Assembly (NCBI GenBank): GCA_947626145.1
Contig: CANQRB010000001.1
Location: 1 to 64,000, forward strand
Source: an uncultured Clostridia bacterium
Lineage (GTDB): Bacteria > Bacillota > Clostridia > UMGS1883
Direction of reading: 5' to 3'
Length of the DNA stretch: 64,000 nt
Shown: positions 12,073-39,666 of the stretch, piece after piece
How positions within the stretch are numbered: position 1 is the first letter of the stretch
How the letters are laid out: every line of letters starts with the position of its first letter
Translations under genes and position numbers: made by a program
Notes under the pieces: model-generated
Seen by the model: only the letters and a program-made list of their open reading frames with translations
Told to the model about the DNA's origin: nothing
Databases searched by the model: none

Positions 12073-12246
12073 AGCTTGTCGAAAGGGTTCGACAAGCTTC
12101 GCGGGGACACCCCCACGGTTTTCCCCGCGGCGCCCCTTTCCGCGTCGGGCGCTTTCGCTTACGGAATATAATTTTTATTGCGATAAAAATTATATTCCTA
12201 CCCCGACTAAGGTATGAAATTCCGGGTACATGCCCCGGAATTTCAT
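12073..12246. repeat. multi-hairpin palindromic element between khpA and rimM
   Basis: Four inverted repeats stand one after another in about 175 bases: 12073-12098 (11 bp, loop AGGG), 12100-12129 (8 bp, CGCGGGGA arms), 12163-12198 (perfect 16 bp, loop TGCG) and 12214-12246 (13 bp, ATGAAATTCCGGG arms). No plausible gene fits. The pattern looks like a dispersed intergenic palindrome unit rather than a terminator, but only one copy is in the window. From 12247 to 12343 there is an AT-rich stretch with a weak promoter-like TTGACT (12259-12264) and the rimM ribosome site. Confidence 0.65.
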
Positions 12247-12343
12247 GAATTTTACTTTTTGACTGTATAGACCGCATATTTAATTCTTTATAGTCTTAAA
12301 GGACTTGTCTTGCAATTCATAATAGTATTTGTGAGGTGTTCTT

Positions 12344-35649: not shown

Positions 35650-36338
35650 CTGAATTCCTCCGCCGCCCTTTCGAACCAATCCGTTTTTTCGTCGGCGTTG
35701 TTAAGGTTGACGTGCTGTGAATGGTCGATTTTGTAGTCCATACTGTAGGCCATATTGTGAACCTCCCATTCGGCGGCCATGCTGTCGATTGTGCGGTCCC
35801 AATCGGTGGGGTGAGCCGCCTCGTGGTCGAGCAGTATCTGACAGAGCTGGCGGATGAGCGCATCGGAGTTTGCGCGGTAGGAGTCCATGACCACAATTTC
35901 CGGATCGGAGGCTTCGCGGCGGTCCACCGCGAAATAGTCGTTTTCACCGGCGGACTGAGCGCTCATATCGAGGTCCTCGTCCACGACGAATATTTTGCCG
36001 GTCAAAGTTTCGCCGTTGTCGTCGCTTGTGGAGTAGGTGTATGTGTATATCAGGCCGCCGTGAGTGGGATCATATTCGTCTTTAAAAAAGCTGACGCCGG
36101 TGGCGTTCATATTTTCATCAAAGGCGTCATTCATGGCAACATAGTCGCCGGCCGCCTCAGCCTCGAGAAAACGGTCATATAGTGCCTGATCGTAGGACTT
36201 CTCCGGAGTGTCGGTCTCGGTTTCGGCATCGTGGGAGGTAAGGAACTCGGAGTCGCCGGGATCCCAAAGGTCAAGAAAAATGAAGAAAGCCGATGCCAGT
36301 GCGAGAACTATCAAAAGTATAATTAAAAATTTTCTCAT
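35646..36338 (-). CDS. membrane-anchored protein of unknown function
   Basis: 230 residues. An N-terminal hydrophobic helix (LIILLIVLALASAFFIFLDL) after MRKF anchors or exports the protein; no lipobox Cys is present. The rest is acidic and soluble, rich in Asp, Glu and Tyr, with strands around THGGLIYTYTYSTSD and a helical end (ALIRQLCQILLDHEAAHPTD). I do not recognise a family. It lies between the DUF2264 gene and the MFS gene, both joined by ATGA overlaps, so it probably works at the cell surface with them. Confidence 0.75.
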   Translation of the reverse strand: MRKFLIILLIVLALASAFFIFLDLWDPGDSEFLTSHDAETETDTPEKSYDQALYDRFLEAEAAGDYVAMNDAFDENMNATGVSFFKDEYDPTHGGLIYTYTYSTSDDNGETLTGKIFVVDEDLDMSAQSAGENDYFAVDRREASDPEIVVMDSYRANSDALIRQLCQILLDHEAAHPTDWDRTIDSMAAEWEVHNMAYSMDYKIDHSQHVNLNNADEKTDWFERAAEEFR

Positions 36339-38152
36339 AAATCTATAATAACGTCCTTACCCATGATTTTTACCGTAATTTTGTCGTCTGATACGGTGAC
36401 GGAGGGAATGGAATCCTCACCGTGTTTGCCGCAGAGTACGGCGCAGGCCAGCACCGTGCGGCCCTTTTCGATTTTTCCGCCGAGAGCGGGGAGAGAGGTG
36501 CGGGAATAAATCAGGTTGGTGTTGGCCTCCATGCCTTGAATCCAGGCGTTTCTGTCGCCTATCAGGTTCACTATTCCGCCGGTGTAACCGTCAAAGTCGG
36601 CAAACACTCCGCCTTCAATATGGCGGACGGCGGATGTGTGCTCGCTGGGGTAGGCGAAGCCGCCCTCGAAGCCCTCCAGCTCACGGGCCGAATTGATAAT
36701 GTGTACTCTCACGTGCCAGGGCAGAGAGGGGATAATATAGGTGTCGATTTCCACGTCGTTCCACGGCGTCCATTTGGTGTATATGTACTCGTCGGTGACC
36801 TTCCAGCCTTTGTTTTCCCGCTTTACACGGTACACGTTGTCCCTTTCGGACAGGGCGAGAGTGCTGTCAAAGCCTCCGGCCCCGACGCCCCAGTTGGATT
36901 TGCTGACGCTGAAGCCGAAAAGGTTGGAATAAGCGAATTTCTCATACTTTGCGCCGCAGTGGGTGTGGCAGTTCACAAATGGGTGTCCGGCGGCGAAGAG
37001 CACACGGTGTTCCCCATCGGTCTGAGCTATCATGTGGGGATGGGGGAGGGTTCGGCTCTTTTCGGGCTTGGGAAGAGGCAGCTCTTCACATTGCCAGAAG
37101 TGACCGTCCTCCGGCAGAGCCAAAATAAGGAAGGTCTTCATCGCCCAGTAGGGGGAGCCGGGGGCGTTGTATCCCTCGGTCATTATAAGATTGGGATAAC
37201 CGAAGCCTATTGTGAGGGTTCCGTCGTTGTTCCAGATAGGCCGCTTGAACCAGCTGCGCAGGTGGCGGAGGATAATGCCCTTTACGACGCCGTCCTCGAA
37301 GCCGCCCACACCCGCGTATGCGTATGCGCTCCAGAAGGCCGCCTGAGCGAAGCGGTAAGTCATGCTGCGTCCGTAGGGCACGGCGCTGCCGTCATCCGAA
37401 AAGTAATATATGAAGTCGTGGGCAAACTTATCCGCCCGTTCCTTAAAGAGCCTGCTCCTTTCCGGATCGGCCTCCTCCATTTCTTTAGCGTAAATGAGCT
37501 GATAGAAATAGATGGCAAAGGCAACATAGTAGTCGCTGTGGGCGTTGACGCCGTCGGCGTACCAGCCGTCGCCGAGGTAATAGCTCTCGACCGCTTGTAG
37601 GGCCGCCTCGACTACCTCAGTGTCGTAGGGGAGGCCAACCTTCCGGAAGCCCAGATTTACCATTACCGCAAAGAGCCGCCAGTTGCAGTCCCAGGCCTTC
37701 TTGGTGTTGACGAAGCTGAGCCAGCGGTAGAGATTGTCCTTCTCCTTTTGCGAAAGCGGATCCCACAGCTTGTCCGGAGCCAGTATAAGCCCCAGTCCCA
37801 TGGCGGCCATTTCGACTAAAAGCTGATCATAGTCATGCACGTCGCCCCAATATTCGGGGCTTTCGGGATCTGTGCCGCAGGCCAGACCCCGGCGGTACAG
37901 ATCGTAAAAGGATTTGCCCATGCCATTGGCGAATACAGGCGCAAGTCCCCAAAGGGGGCGGGCAAAGGCCTCCACCTCGGCGGTGCTGTCACTGTATCCG
38001 GCGCTGGTATTACCAACGTGGAGCCGGCTTTTTCCCTCGGAGTACAGACCCGCAAGGGGTTCGCACATTTCAAACACGGCGTCCGACACGTCTTTGTAGG
38101 TGCGGAGCGGGTTGTCAGAGAATACATGGGGATTGTCCCGGAAAGAATTCAT
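36335..38152 (-). CDS. DUF2264 family protein, probable carbohydrate-active enzyme
   Basis: 605 residues of the DUF2264 family. The N-terminal half is an all-helical, probably alpha/alpha-toroid domain (YWGDVHDYDQLLVEMAAMGL, DGWYADGVNAHSDYYVAFAI), followed by a beta-rich part with NCHTHCGAKYEKFAYSNLFG. Such toroid-plus-beta proteins are often found in polysaccharide-utilisation regions and some are uronic-acid-acting glycosidases; activity for this one is inference. There is no signal peptide. It has a strong promoter (38195-38223) and heads a four-gene unit with an anchored protein and two transporters. Confidence 0.82.
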   Translation of the reverse strand: MNSFRDNPHVFSDNPLRTYKDVSDAVFEMCEPLAGLYSEGKSRLHVGNTSAGYSDSTAEVEAFARPLWGLAPVFANGMGKSFYDLYRRGLACGTDPESPEYWGDVHDYDQLLVEMAAMGLGLILAPDKLWDPLSQKEKDNLYRWLSFVNTKKAWDCNWRLFAVMVNLGFRKVGLPYDTEVVEAALQAVESYYLGDGWYADGVNAHSDYYVAFAIYFYQLIYAKEMEEADPERSRLFKERADKFAHDFIYYFSDDGSAVPYGRSMTYRFAQAAFWSAYAYAGVGGFEDGVVKGIILRHLRSWFKRPIWNNDGTLTIGFGYPNLIMTEGYNAPGSPYWAMKTFLILALPEDGHFWQCEELPLPKPEKSRTLPHPHMIAQTDGEHRVLFAAGHPFVNCHTHCGAKYEKFAYSNLFGFSVSKSNWGVGAGGFDSTLALSERDNVYRVKRENKGWKVTDEYIYTKWTPWNDVEIDTYIIPSLPWHVRVHIINSARELEGFEGGFAYPSEHTSAVRHIEGGVFADFDGYTGGIVNLIGDRNAWIQGMEANTNLIYSRTSLPALGGKIEKGRTVLACAVLCGKHGEDSIPSVTVSDDKITVKIMGKDVIIDL

Positions 38153-38194
38153 ATGTATACATCCTTTCGCTTTGAATTTTTAACAATTAATTAT

Positions 38195-38223
38195 ATTATA
38201 TGAAGAAATGGGTTCGCCGTCAA
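38195..38223 (-). promoter_or_regulatory. promoter of the DUF2264 operon
   Basis: Minus strand TTGACG (38218-38223), 17 bases, TATAAT (38195-38200), 43 bases before the ATG, with AAAGGATG as the ribosome site. Confidence 0.88.
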
Positions 38224-38331
38224 GTATATTTTTTATTTTAATAGAAGGTTTTTTATCCGACAGAAATGGGCTGTATAAAAACTCGCTATGTAACATGGAG
38301 GCACGGGGGCCGGTCGAAAAAATCGTGCAGA

Positions 38332-38424
38332 ACGGACGAAAATCAGCTCTCGCAGGCGGCTCCTGCCGCTGAGAAAGCCCTCCCGACGGCGTACATAGGT
38401 ACGCCGAGGGTGATTTTCGTTCGT
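38332..38424. repeat. three-way-junction palindromic element
   Basis: An outer 14-pair stem (38332-38345 with 38411-38424, one G-U pair) encloses two hairpins: one at about 38348-38373 (CGGC-TCCT-GCCG core) and one at 38378-38410 (CGGCGTAC / GTACGCCG, loop ATAG, plus outer CCCT/AGGG). It lies in a 443-base gap without a gene, between the terminator of the C39-like gene and the promoter of the DUF2264 operon. It could be a structured RNA or a mobile palindromic repeat. The rest of the gap shows only the two sites listed separately. Confidence 0.65.
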
Positions 38425-38444
38425 AGTTCAAGGGCATAAAAATG

Positions 38445-38474
38445 AGAAAATTCGCTCGTTAGGGCGAATTTTCT
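38445..38474 (-). terminator. terminator of the C39-like peptidase gene
   Basis: Eleven-bp stem AGAAAATTCGC / GCGAATTTTCT with an 8-base loop; on the minus strand it is followed by CATTTTTATG. The same core sequence recurs in the terminator at 56171. Confidence 0.75.
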
Positions 38475-38595
38475 ACATTATGCAATTATTTTATTTTTAT
38501 CGATTGGCTATATAACACTCAAATTTGCCTTAAATTAAGTCATTTAGCCCTTGAACGATCTGCGCGACTTTTTTACGGCCCCGTCCTTATATGCC

Positions 38596-39666
38596 TTATT
38601 TCACGGCAAGTGCCTGTATGAAGGTTATATCCCCGATGCTTATACCGCTGGCTCCGATGCAAGTCTCGTCAAAGGTGACATATTCCTTGGAGCTGTAATC
38701 GGTATAACTGTGAGAAATCTGCATTGGCTCGTTGAAGAATACGGTATCGCCGTCATATCCCACGGCAACCATTGTGTGGGGATAGTCGGCATAGCGTACC
38801 ATAACGCCCGCGGGATTTCTGTCGAGGGCCTCTTTGATGGCCTGAATGGCCTCGTAATCGCTTGAACAGTTAACGAAGGTTCCGCCGGAGTTGGAGTCGC
38901 GGCCGCCGTAGTAGGGGCTGTTGGTGTCCAATGCGGAAACGAAATCTACTCCGAAAGCGCTGGCGATTTTCCAGTGATTGCAATATGAACCGCTGCCGCC
39001 GGCCGCCTCGTTGACGCTGGCGACCTCAACGGGAGTGACGCTGTAGCCAAGAACGTCGGAAAGGAGCATCGCATAGCTCACCGTCCAGCAATAGCCGCTG
39101 CCGTAGTTGGGGAGCTGCCAGCAGGACTGATTTTGGAAGTAAAAGGTATGGCTGCCGCCGTAATACATGGGGTTGATCGCCGGCGCGGCCGCCGCACCGT
39201 ATTCGTAGCCGTTGGTGGAAAGCTTGACCGTGCTGTCGGCGCTGTCCCAGTATATATCCACGCCGAAGGCCTCGGCAACGCTCCTGAGAGGAACATATGC
39301 ACAGCCATCTATTACCATGGGAGCCACGGCAAGCTTGACCTGATTTACGTCGTCGCTTTCCGTAAGATCACTAACCGTCATTACATCGTAGTCCATCTTA
39401 AGCACCGCGCCTATGCCGTCGCCGGTCAGTCTGACGCTCTGCGTATTTGTGGACCATTTTACGTCAAAGCCCATGGCGTTTGCAAGAGGACGGGCCTCGA
39501 CCATCATGACCTCATCGACCATGACGGGCGCGCTGTCGAAGTTAACTCTTCTGCCATTCAGTAAAACATCTATATCGTCATCGGCGGCGAATGCTGCGGA
39601 CGAAACACTGAGAAGAAGCACCGTCATTATCATAGCGAACACTGCCGATAAGGCTTTACTGCGCAT
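38596..39666 (-). CDS. secreted C39-like cysteine peptidase with copper-amine-oxidase N-terminal-like domain
   Basis: 356 residues. A signal peptide (about 1-27, ending SSAAFAA), then a copper amine oxidase N-domain-like module (about 33-155: VLLNGRRVNFDSAPVMVDE, YVPLRSVAEAFGVDIYWDS), a surface-associated repeat common in Firmicutes. The C-terminal half is a papain-like C39-type peptidase: the likely nucleophile Cys in GYCWTVSYAMLL and the His in HTMVAVGYDGD. It has its own promoter and terminator. It is divergent from a secreted protein with the same kind of N-terminal module, so both may act on the envelope. Substrate unknown. Confidence 0.82.
   Translation of the reverse strand: MRSKALSAVFAMIMTVLLLSVSSAAFAADDDIDVLLNGRRVNFDSAPVMVDEVMMVEARPLANAMGFDVKWSTNTQSVRLTGDGIGAVLKMDYDVMTVSDLTESDDVNQVKLAVAPMVIDGCAYVPLRSVAEAFGVDIYWDSADSTVKLSTNGYEYGAAAAPAINPMYYGGSHTFYFQNQSCWQLPNYGSGYCWTVSYAMLLSDVLGYSVTPVEVASVNEAAGGSGSYCNHWKIASAFGVDFVSALDTNSPYYGGRDSNSGGTFVNCSSDYEAIQAIKEALDRNPAGVMVRYADYPHTMVAVGYDGDTVFFNEPMQISHSYTDYSSKEYVTFDETCIGASGISIGDITFIQALAVK

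Follow-up and report, generated by a model that had tools for sequence, protein, structure and literature searches.

A structured repeat with a three-way junction at its core, probably mobile and non-autonomous, is found in many Clostridia families

Results

A three-way junction is the inner third of a larger folded element

The window (i.e., the whole stretch of 64,000 nucleotides analysed, from an uncultured Clostridia bacterium) holds, between two minus-strand ORFs, a folded element whose stems are referred to as P1 to P5. The features of the locus are as follows, with the type of evidence in brackets.

36335..38152, minus strand: neighbouring ORF of 605 aa, on the other side of the element (a promoter-like site lies outside the element)
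38268..38304, plus strand: lineage-specific left extension, starting with an extra copy of the end motif (GGGCTGT..AAAAA) and ending in GGAGGCAC
38305..38582, plus strand: whole element, bounded by P1 (one folding unit; aligns with 14 further near-full copies from its own genome)
38305..38331, plus strand: 5′ arm of P1 with an A-tract, ending in TGCAGA (fold; printed sequence)
38332..38345, plus strand: 5′ arm of P2, the stem of the three-way junction (fold, inverted repeat, covariation)
38346..38378, plus strand: P3 hairpin, variable in sequence and length (fold, family alignment)
38382..38410, plus strand: P4 hairpin, the most conserved piece, CCCGAMGGCGTAC-NNNN-GTACGYCGAG (fold, alignment; changes on both sides)
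38411..38424, plus strand: 3′ arm of P2 (fold, inverted repeat)
38426..38435, plus strand: 5′ arm of P5, GTTCAAGGGC (inverted repeat)
38445..38474, minus strand: terminator-like hairpin inside P5 (11 pairs, T-rich tail on the minus strand)
38547..38556, plus strand: 3′ arm of P5, GCCCTTGAAC (inverted repeat)
38559..38582, plus strand: 3′ arm of P1 with a T-tract, TCTGCGCGACTTTTTTACGGCCCC (fold; printed sequence)
38596..39666, minus strand: neighbouring ORF of 356 aa, its stop codon 13 bases from the right end of the element

A previous, sequence-only reading of this locus had described a 14-pair stem around two inner hairpins at 38332-38424, and this structure was recovered with exactly these coordinates: the P2 arms (38332-38345 and 38411-38424) form 14 pairs, are 93% complementary and surround two hairpins, and the minimum free energy of the segment (−52.0 kcal/mol) compares with −29.5 ± 3.5 kcal/mol for 200 shuffled versions, none of which folded as well (z-score of −6.4). 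The limits themselves had been drawn too narrowly, since the region 38290-38600 folds as a single unit (−133.5 kcal/mol; z-score of −10.4, with 0 of 100 shuffles as good); its minus strand also folds (z-score of −9.8). The larger element spans about 38305-38582, with the three-way junction at 38332-38424 as its inner third; GGGGGCCGGTCGAAAAAATCGTGCAGA and TCTGCGCGACTTTTTTACGGCCCC form the outer stem P1, and a second arm, P5, is a perfect 10-bp pairing (38426-38435 with 38547-38556) that encloses the hairpin at 38445-38474. The element measures about 280 bases in the window and about 150-290 bp over the family. The left extension (38268..38304) is alike in most of 15 aligned copies from the same genome, with the exception of L013, and extensions of this type are present in same-genus flanks as well (e.g., L052, L053, and L055).

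The hairpin at 38445-38474 was the only terminator-like site, on the minus strand, between 38150 and 38650, a number (one, vs. a mean of 0.6 in shuffled sequences) that alone is not beyond chance. On the minus strand, the predicted P5 hairpin displays the GC stem and subsequent T-tract of an intrinsic terminator, and, judging by this sequence, transcription of the ORF at 38596-39666 could terminate there. A promoter-like site with 11 of 12 matches (38223-38195, minus strand) was located before the ORF at 36335-38152. The junction had earlier been seen as lying between a terminator and a promoter; the promoter-like site is indeed outside the element, but the terminator is probably the hairpin at 38445-38474 and as such a part of it.

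No conserved reading frame was found to run through the junction: the best of six anchored frames (on the minus strand) is open in 71 of 136 elements, and the spacing between P2 and P4 in these 136 elements occurs in all three frames. An 85-aa minus-strand ORF (38180-38437 in the window) spans the junction, and similar short ORFs span several of the copies in the same genome.

Compensatory changes and strand asymmetry point to a maintained plus-strand fold

Covariation, which the sequence-only reading had proposed as a check, proved to be strong. In an alignment of 45 diverse members (A1), 97.8% of the cells pair and both partners have changed in 13 of 24 pairs, with 108 two-sided-change cells vs. 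28 ± 4 in shuffled alignments and at most 45 in slid controls. A1 comprises 45 of 53 representatives, three weak ones having been dropped together with L040, L069, L078, L084, and L109 (irregular, P3-less or mistrimmed); L069 and L109 leave no space for the P3 hairpin. The invariance of P4 in A1 is partly by construction, since P4 was demanded by the pattern used to scan the genome collection. In a second alignment (A2; 28 hand-picked rows, nine of them from 30 loci found with a model of the junction and several chosen for their changed P4), three of the seven P4 pairs change on both sides.

Within A1, G-U cells outnumber A-C cells by 69 to 6 (49 to 6 when P4 is left out), and this count is preferred over a second one of 162 to 15, which came from arms picked with G-T counted as a pair. 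Moreover, the junction is more stable on the plus strand in 118 of 136 elements. From this G-U excess and the greater plus-strand stability, we infer the plus strand to be the one whose folding is maintained. To the extent of covariation and strand asymmetry, the data thus support the option of a small structured RNA, one of two that had been offered for the junction.

The P1 arms are inverted and differ in sequence between lineages, with an element's own arms on average pairing better than foreign ones (mean duplex energy of −26.3 kcal/mol with the own vs. −21.8 kcal/mol with a foreign 3′ side). When longer P1 duplexes were compared, the fraction of foreign 3′ sides that paired at least as well had a median of 0.15 and a mean of 0.27, and the own side was best in 25 of 133 cases; with 11-nt arms there was no discrimination (own 122 of 136, swapped 530 of 677).

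The element is multi-copy in its host and spread over 14 families of the class

A nucleotide search of the host genome (G000; 2.44 Mb in 23 contigs) yielded 61 matches, part of which represent the two strands of one palindrome. Fifteen places matched nearly the full query, at 74-100% identity, and when these copies were aligned in the same orientation, the junction was nearly invariant, the right end was common to them, and the P5 loop was variable and A+T-rich. A covariance model of the junction (R1) found 18 places in this genome at E ≤ 0.1, three of them weak. The genome-wide copy count, likewise proposed beforehand, stands at 15 near-full copies and many partial ones. Three loci (L181, L182, and L190) keep P1 and P5 and lack exactly the P2-P3-P4 junction arm. 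Tandem copies, spaced by about 242, 234 or 154 bp, were found in several genomes.

In a sample of the class, R1 matched 51 of 391 genomes at E ≤ 0.001 (own genus and own genome included), spread over 30 of 220 genera and 14 families, of which one (f53) is included via a weak match only. At least ten copies were found in 30 of these 51 genomes, the per-genome numbers being lower bounds in this search as well as in the nucleotide search of the genus. Each of seven same-genus genomes gave at least 12 nucleotide matches (pieces counted apart), and at least one nucleotide match was present in 22 of 60 genomes, the own genome included. In an even sample of the phylum, R1 matched the own genome only (1 of 398 genomes, at least 14 of which belong to the class), and no R1 match was obtained in G008 and G009, which belong to the same family as the host.

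A pattern scan of the genome collection returned at least 117 stretches; the 80 listed were all titled Clostridia, Clostridiales, Eubacteriales or Oscillospiraceae, and many of these 80 titles name herbivore gut sites. Other lineages display the same architecture with different sequences, sometimes compacted to about 150 nt (L078 and L096). Plasmid and phage collections gave no match to the element. A viral contig collection contained four stretches with the core pattern (L176-L179), three of which (L176, L177, and L179) have common flanks. A number of matches lie within about 60 bases of a contig end (e.g., L065, L077, L087, L090, L128, and L130), and copies of the element probably break assemblies.

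Copies tend to lie beside terminator-like hairpins and at gene ends

The genes around 133 distinct loci, taken as the longest ORFs of at least 100 aa, were convergent in 54 cases, both on the minus strand in 45, both on the plus strand in 20, and divergent in 5, with no left gene called in the remaining 9 (raw counts, that for convergent genes being without a computed background). The right-hand gene ends toward the element in 108 of the 133 loci, and the plus strand is antisense to it there. In the left flank (plus strand), a hairpin of at least 9 bp was present in 47 of the 109 elements (out of 136) that could be bounded, vs. 2 after shuffling that preserved base composition only. For the 91 of 136 elements with both ends bounded, a flank hairpin was found on the left in 36 and on the right in 3, and TTTT occurred within 12 bases of the element in 30 left and 42 right flanks. 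TTTT also follows 2-6 nt past the TCTG/TCCG/TCCA motif in 103 of 136 elements (raw count). A common order is a terminator-like hairpin, a T-rich stretch, the element, and the 3′ end of a gene on the opposite strand. Copies were also seen inside apparent atp and dnaK-dnaJ operons.

Elements L112, L053, and L170, from three lineages and in differing orientation, lie near dnaJ or between dnaK and dnaJ, which suggests that this area is a favoured region. In the printed stretch of L154, the dnaK-dnaJ gap is without an element.

Occupied sites turn over between species of one genus

Several sites could be compared between relatives, with genes (rplQ, accA, truA, atpE, atpF, dnaK, and dnaJ) named as read from the sequence and not from database matches. 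At rplQ, the element starts a few bases after the stop codon in G000 and was absent from all five relatives in which the locus was found (seven searched). The accA locus carries the element in G000 and G007 and a plain hairpin in G002; the truA locus carries the element in G000 and another repeat in G007; and the atpE-atpF site is occupied in L115 and empty in L131. When the 15 own copies were compared with 46 copies from the seven same-genus genomes, both flanks were common only to L012 and L271, and L006 and L015 each had one flank in common with another copy. The mobile repeat that had been named as the other option for the junction is supported by the further copies in the genome, the lineage-specific sites, and the pairs of occupied and empty sites. 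By eye, no target-site duplication was evident in the flanks or the occupied and empty sites, T-rich flanks being ambiguous in this respect.

At two sites common to two species (L155 compared with L227, and L162 with L131), identity is 96% and 94% in the core, 85-86% and 61% in the flanks, and 72% and 68% in the P5 loop. Selection on resident copies, gene conversion or re-insertion at the same spot could each explain this conservation of the core.

The element had also been likened to a repeat at 12073 of the window; both are indeed dispersed and located at gene ends, but no kinship in sequence was apparent by eye. The 12073 repeat (12096-12252 in the window) is itself a dispersed family, with seven distinct places in the host genome, and a member of it was recognised by eye after rplQ in G002, where G000 has the element. 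Further repeats were met in or around individual copies. At accA in G007 (L200 / L271), a repeat-like insert of ~187 bp, whose ends are AAGGCAATACCGCACA and its complement, is contained in the P5 loop. In two genomes (L180 and L207), minisatellite-like units of ATTAGGAATGAGGAATT, tied to another, longer repeat, were seen near gene ends. An apparent direct repeat at L180 (ATTAGAAATGA) was considered and set aside, as it seems to be part of another repeat family.

The element matches no Rfam family and does not follow Y1 transposases or group II maturases

At gathering score, Rfam 15 gave no match in the window. A permissive scan of five element loci yielded matches on the element only at E-values of 0.12 or worse, below gathering scores, and in eight further loci it returned genuine neighbours (6S, TPP, and tRNA) and chance-level matches only; the group II intron families of Rfam did not match. 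Literature searches listed no description recognisable by title or abstract, although the element may be among the 3161 candidate RNAs of PMC8040213.

Among enzymes, a RAYT/Y1 transposase was rejected, given that G000 has no Y1_Tnp match and that the domain occurs in 15 of 24 carriers and 9 of 16 non-carriers, i.e., with no association. The GIIM domain of group II maturases was found in 1 of 24 carriers and 2 of 16 non-carriers, and RVT_1, for reverse transcriptases in general, in 12 of 24 and 5 of 16, respectively, some of the carriers being incomplete MAGs. Among 39 elements with no 5′ or 3′ arm close by, in which the 3′ arm was sought up to 4 kb onward where lacking, no pattern of an ORF-bearing version of the P5 loop was seen.

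Discussion

The three-way junction is, with a probability of about 0.68, the core of a non-autonomous, protein-free mobile repeat that occurs in many families of the Clostridia, depends on an enzyme supplied in trans, and inserts beside terminator hairpins. Such an enzyme would recognise either the folded plus strand (as ssDNA or RNA) or the P1 ends, and insertion would take place at or next to a terminator hairpin. The element's own end, hairpin-like and often followed by T, may then serve as the next target, and this resemblance would account for the tandem arrays. The A/T-tract stem and the P5 hairpin would, moreover, offer a ready terminator to adjoining genes, which may explain why 3′ UTRs and the gaps between convergent genes tolerate insertions; the copy in the window would then act as the 3′ UTR and terminator of the minus-strand ORF at 38596-39666. 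Several observations sit uneasily with this mobile-repeat reading: a target-site duplication was not definable; the mobilising enzyme was not found among Y1_Tnp proteins and group II maturases; 62 of 109 left flanks are without a 9-bp hairpin; the P1 arms vary in sequence by lineage, unlike the ends of ordinary transposons; the core at the two common sites (94-96% identical, vs. 61-86% for the flanks and 68-72% for the P5 loop) has not decayed like an inert insertion; and the termination activity is deduced from sequence.

A more specific proposal, which we regard as rather unlikely but worth stating, is that of a new, structure-guided class of mobile elements, in which the enzyme acting in trans would read the folded plus strand and not the ends, and would insert 3′ of terminator hairpins. 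Resident copies would in that case be partly domesticated as 3′ UTR or terminator RNA, with the junction under selection in many families of gut Clostridia.

Unlikely, too, is a multi-copy functional RNA (a cis-acting 3′ UTR element or an sRNA) selected at each site, with dispersal being secondary. It would explain the strand-specific covariation and the likeness of P4 in 14 families, even though P4 belonged to the search pattern, and it is kept alive mainly by the two sites common to two species, where the core is far more conserved than the flanks and P5 loop. Nevertheless, the sites turn over within one genus, presence is patchy (G008 and G009, from the host's family, gave no match), and at 108 of 133 loci the right-hand gene runs antisense to the plus strand, while a promoter scan of the window copy revealed two weak sites, neither of them inside the element.

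That the element is an ordinary MITE, moved by a DDE transposase via its terminal inverted repeats and structured merely as a by-product of palindromic ends, appears doubtful. The element is short, non-coding, dispersed, and multi-copy, lacks a conserved frame, is rare in divergent regions, and has imperfect inverted ends (GGGGCTGT../..ACAGCCCC), all of which would suit a MITE. The ends, however, differ between lineages with pairing kept on average, the conserved sequence is central (in part by construction), and the flanks displayed no clear target-site duplication by eye.

Very improbable is a SINE-like element copied from RNA by a resident reverse transcriptase, its insertion 3′ of terminators copying the habit of class C group II introns. 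The plus-strand folding and one-sided position downstream of terminator-like hairpins would agree with it, as would the insertion of class C introns downstream of terminators as described in PMC3522654, but GIIM was found in only 1 of 24 carriers and RVT_1 gave no match in 12 of 24, some being incomplete MAGs. Least probable of all is that the element is just a large transcription terminator, active in both directions, which was multiplied by duplication and is not truly mobile; the A/T-tract stem, the terminator-like P5 hairpin, and the convergent genes at 54 of 133 loci would fit, but a three-way junction is not generally understood to be part of an intrinsic terminator and is foreign to this explanation, as are the copies within apparent atp and dnaK-dnaJ operons.

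The junction is kept by compensatory change over 14 families, yet its sites shift between species of the same genus, which makes the element a system in which selection of a mobile element for its shape can be tested. In many gut Clostridia it may be a source of terminators and 3′ UTRs, and, given that no Rfam 15 family matches, it deserves a name and a model. The usual view of small interspersed repeats is that they are young and limited to one species or genus. The element is shorter than class C (IIC) group II introns. Like the element, these introns lie just downstream of Rho-independent terminators and fold as an RNA strand (PMC3522654); the element differs in that no group II intron family of Rfam matches and a maturase domain was not found in 23 of 24 carriers. 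REP/BIME sequences with their RAYT (Y1) transposases (for a survey of REP sequences, see PMC12306157) are intergenic palindromic repeats near gene ends that fold as single strands, as the element does, but the latter is much longer and branched, and G000 is without a Y1_Tnp match. Prokaryotic MITEs, as reviewed in PMC10969869, share with the element a small size, an intergenic location, a predicted stable stem-loop, and the lack of a conserved frame; they differ from it in that its end sequences are not conserved between lineages and neither a target-site duplication (by eye) nor, in the search for Y1_Tnp, a partner transposase was found.

Closest in kind are BOX, RUP, and SPRITE, the small interspersed repeats of the pneumococcus, which PMC3049150 places in S. 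pneumoniae. They are, like the element, non-coding, dispersed, extensively folded, and over-represented between convergent genes, with SPRITE being terminator-like and enriched close to the 3′ ends of genes (PMC3049150). As far as these descriptions go, the element is set apart by its occurrence in 14 families of one class and by its three-way junction with compensatory changes. The element is best read as a new family of non-autonomous, structured mobile repeats that is unusually widespread and resembles BOX, RUP, and SPRITE in kind.
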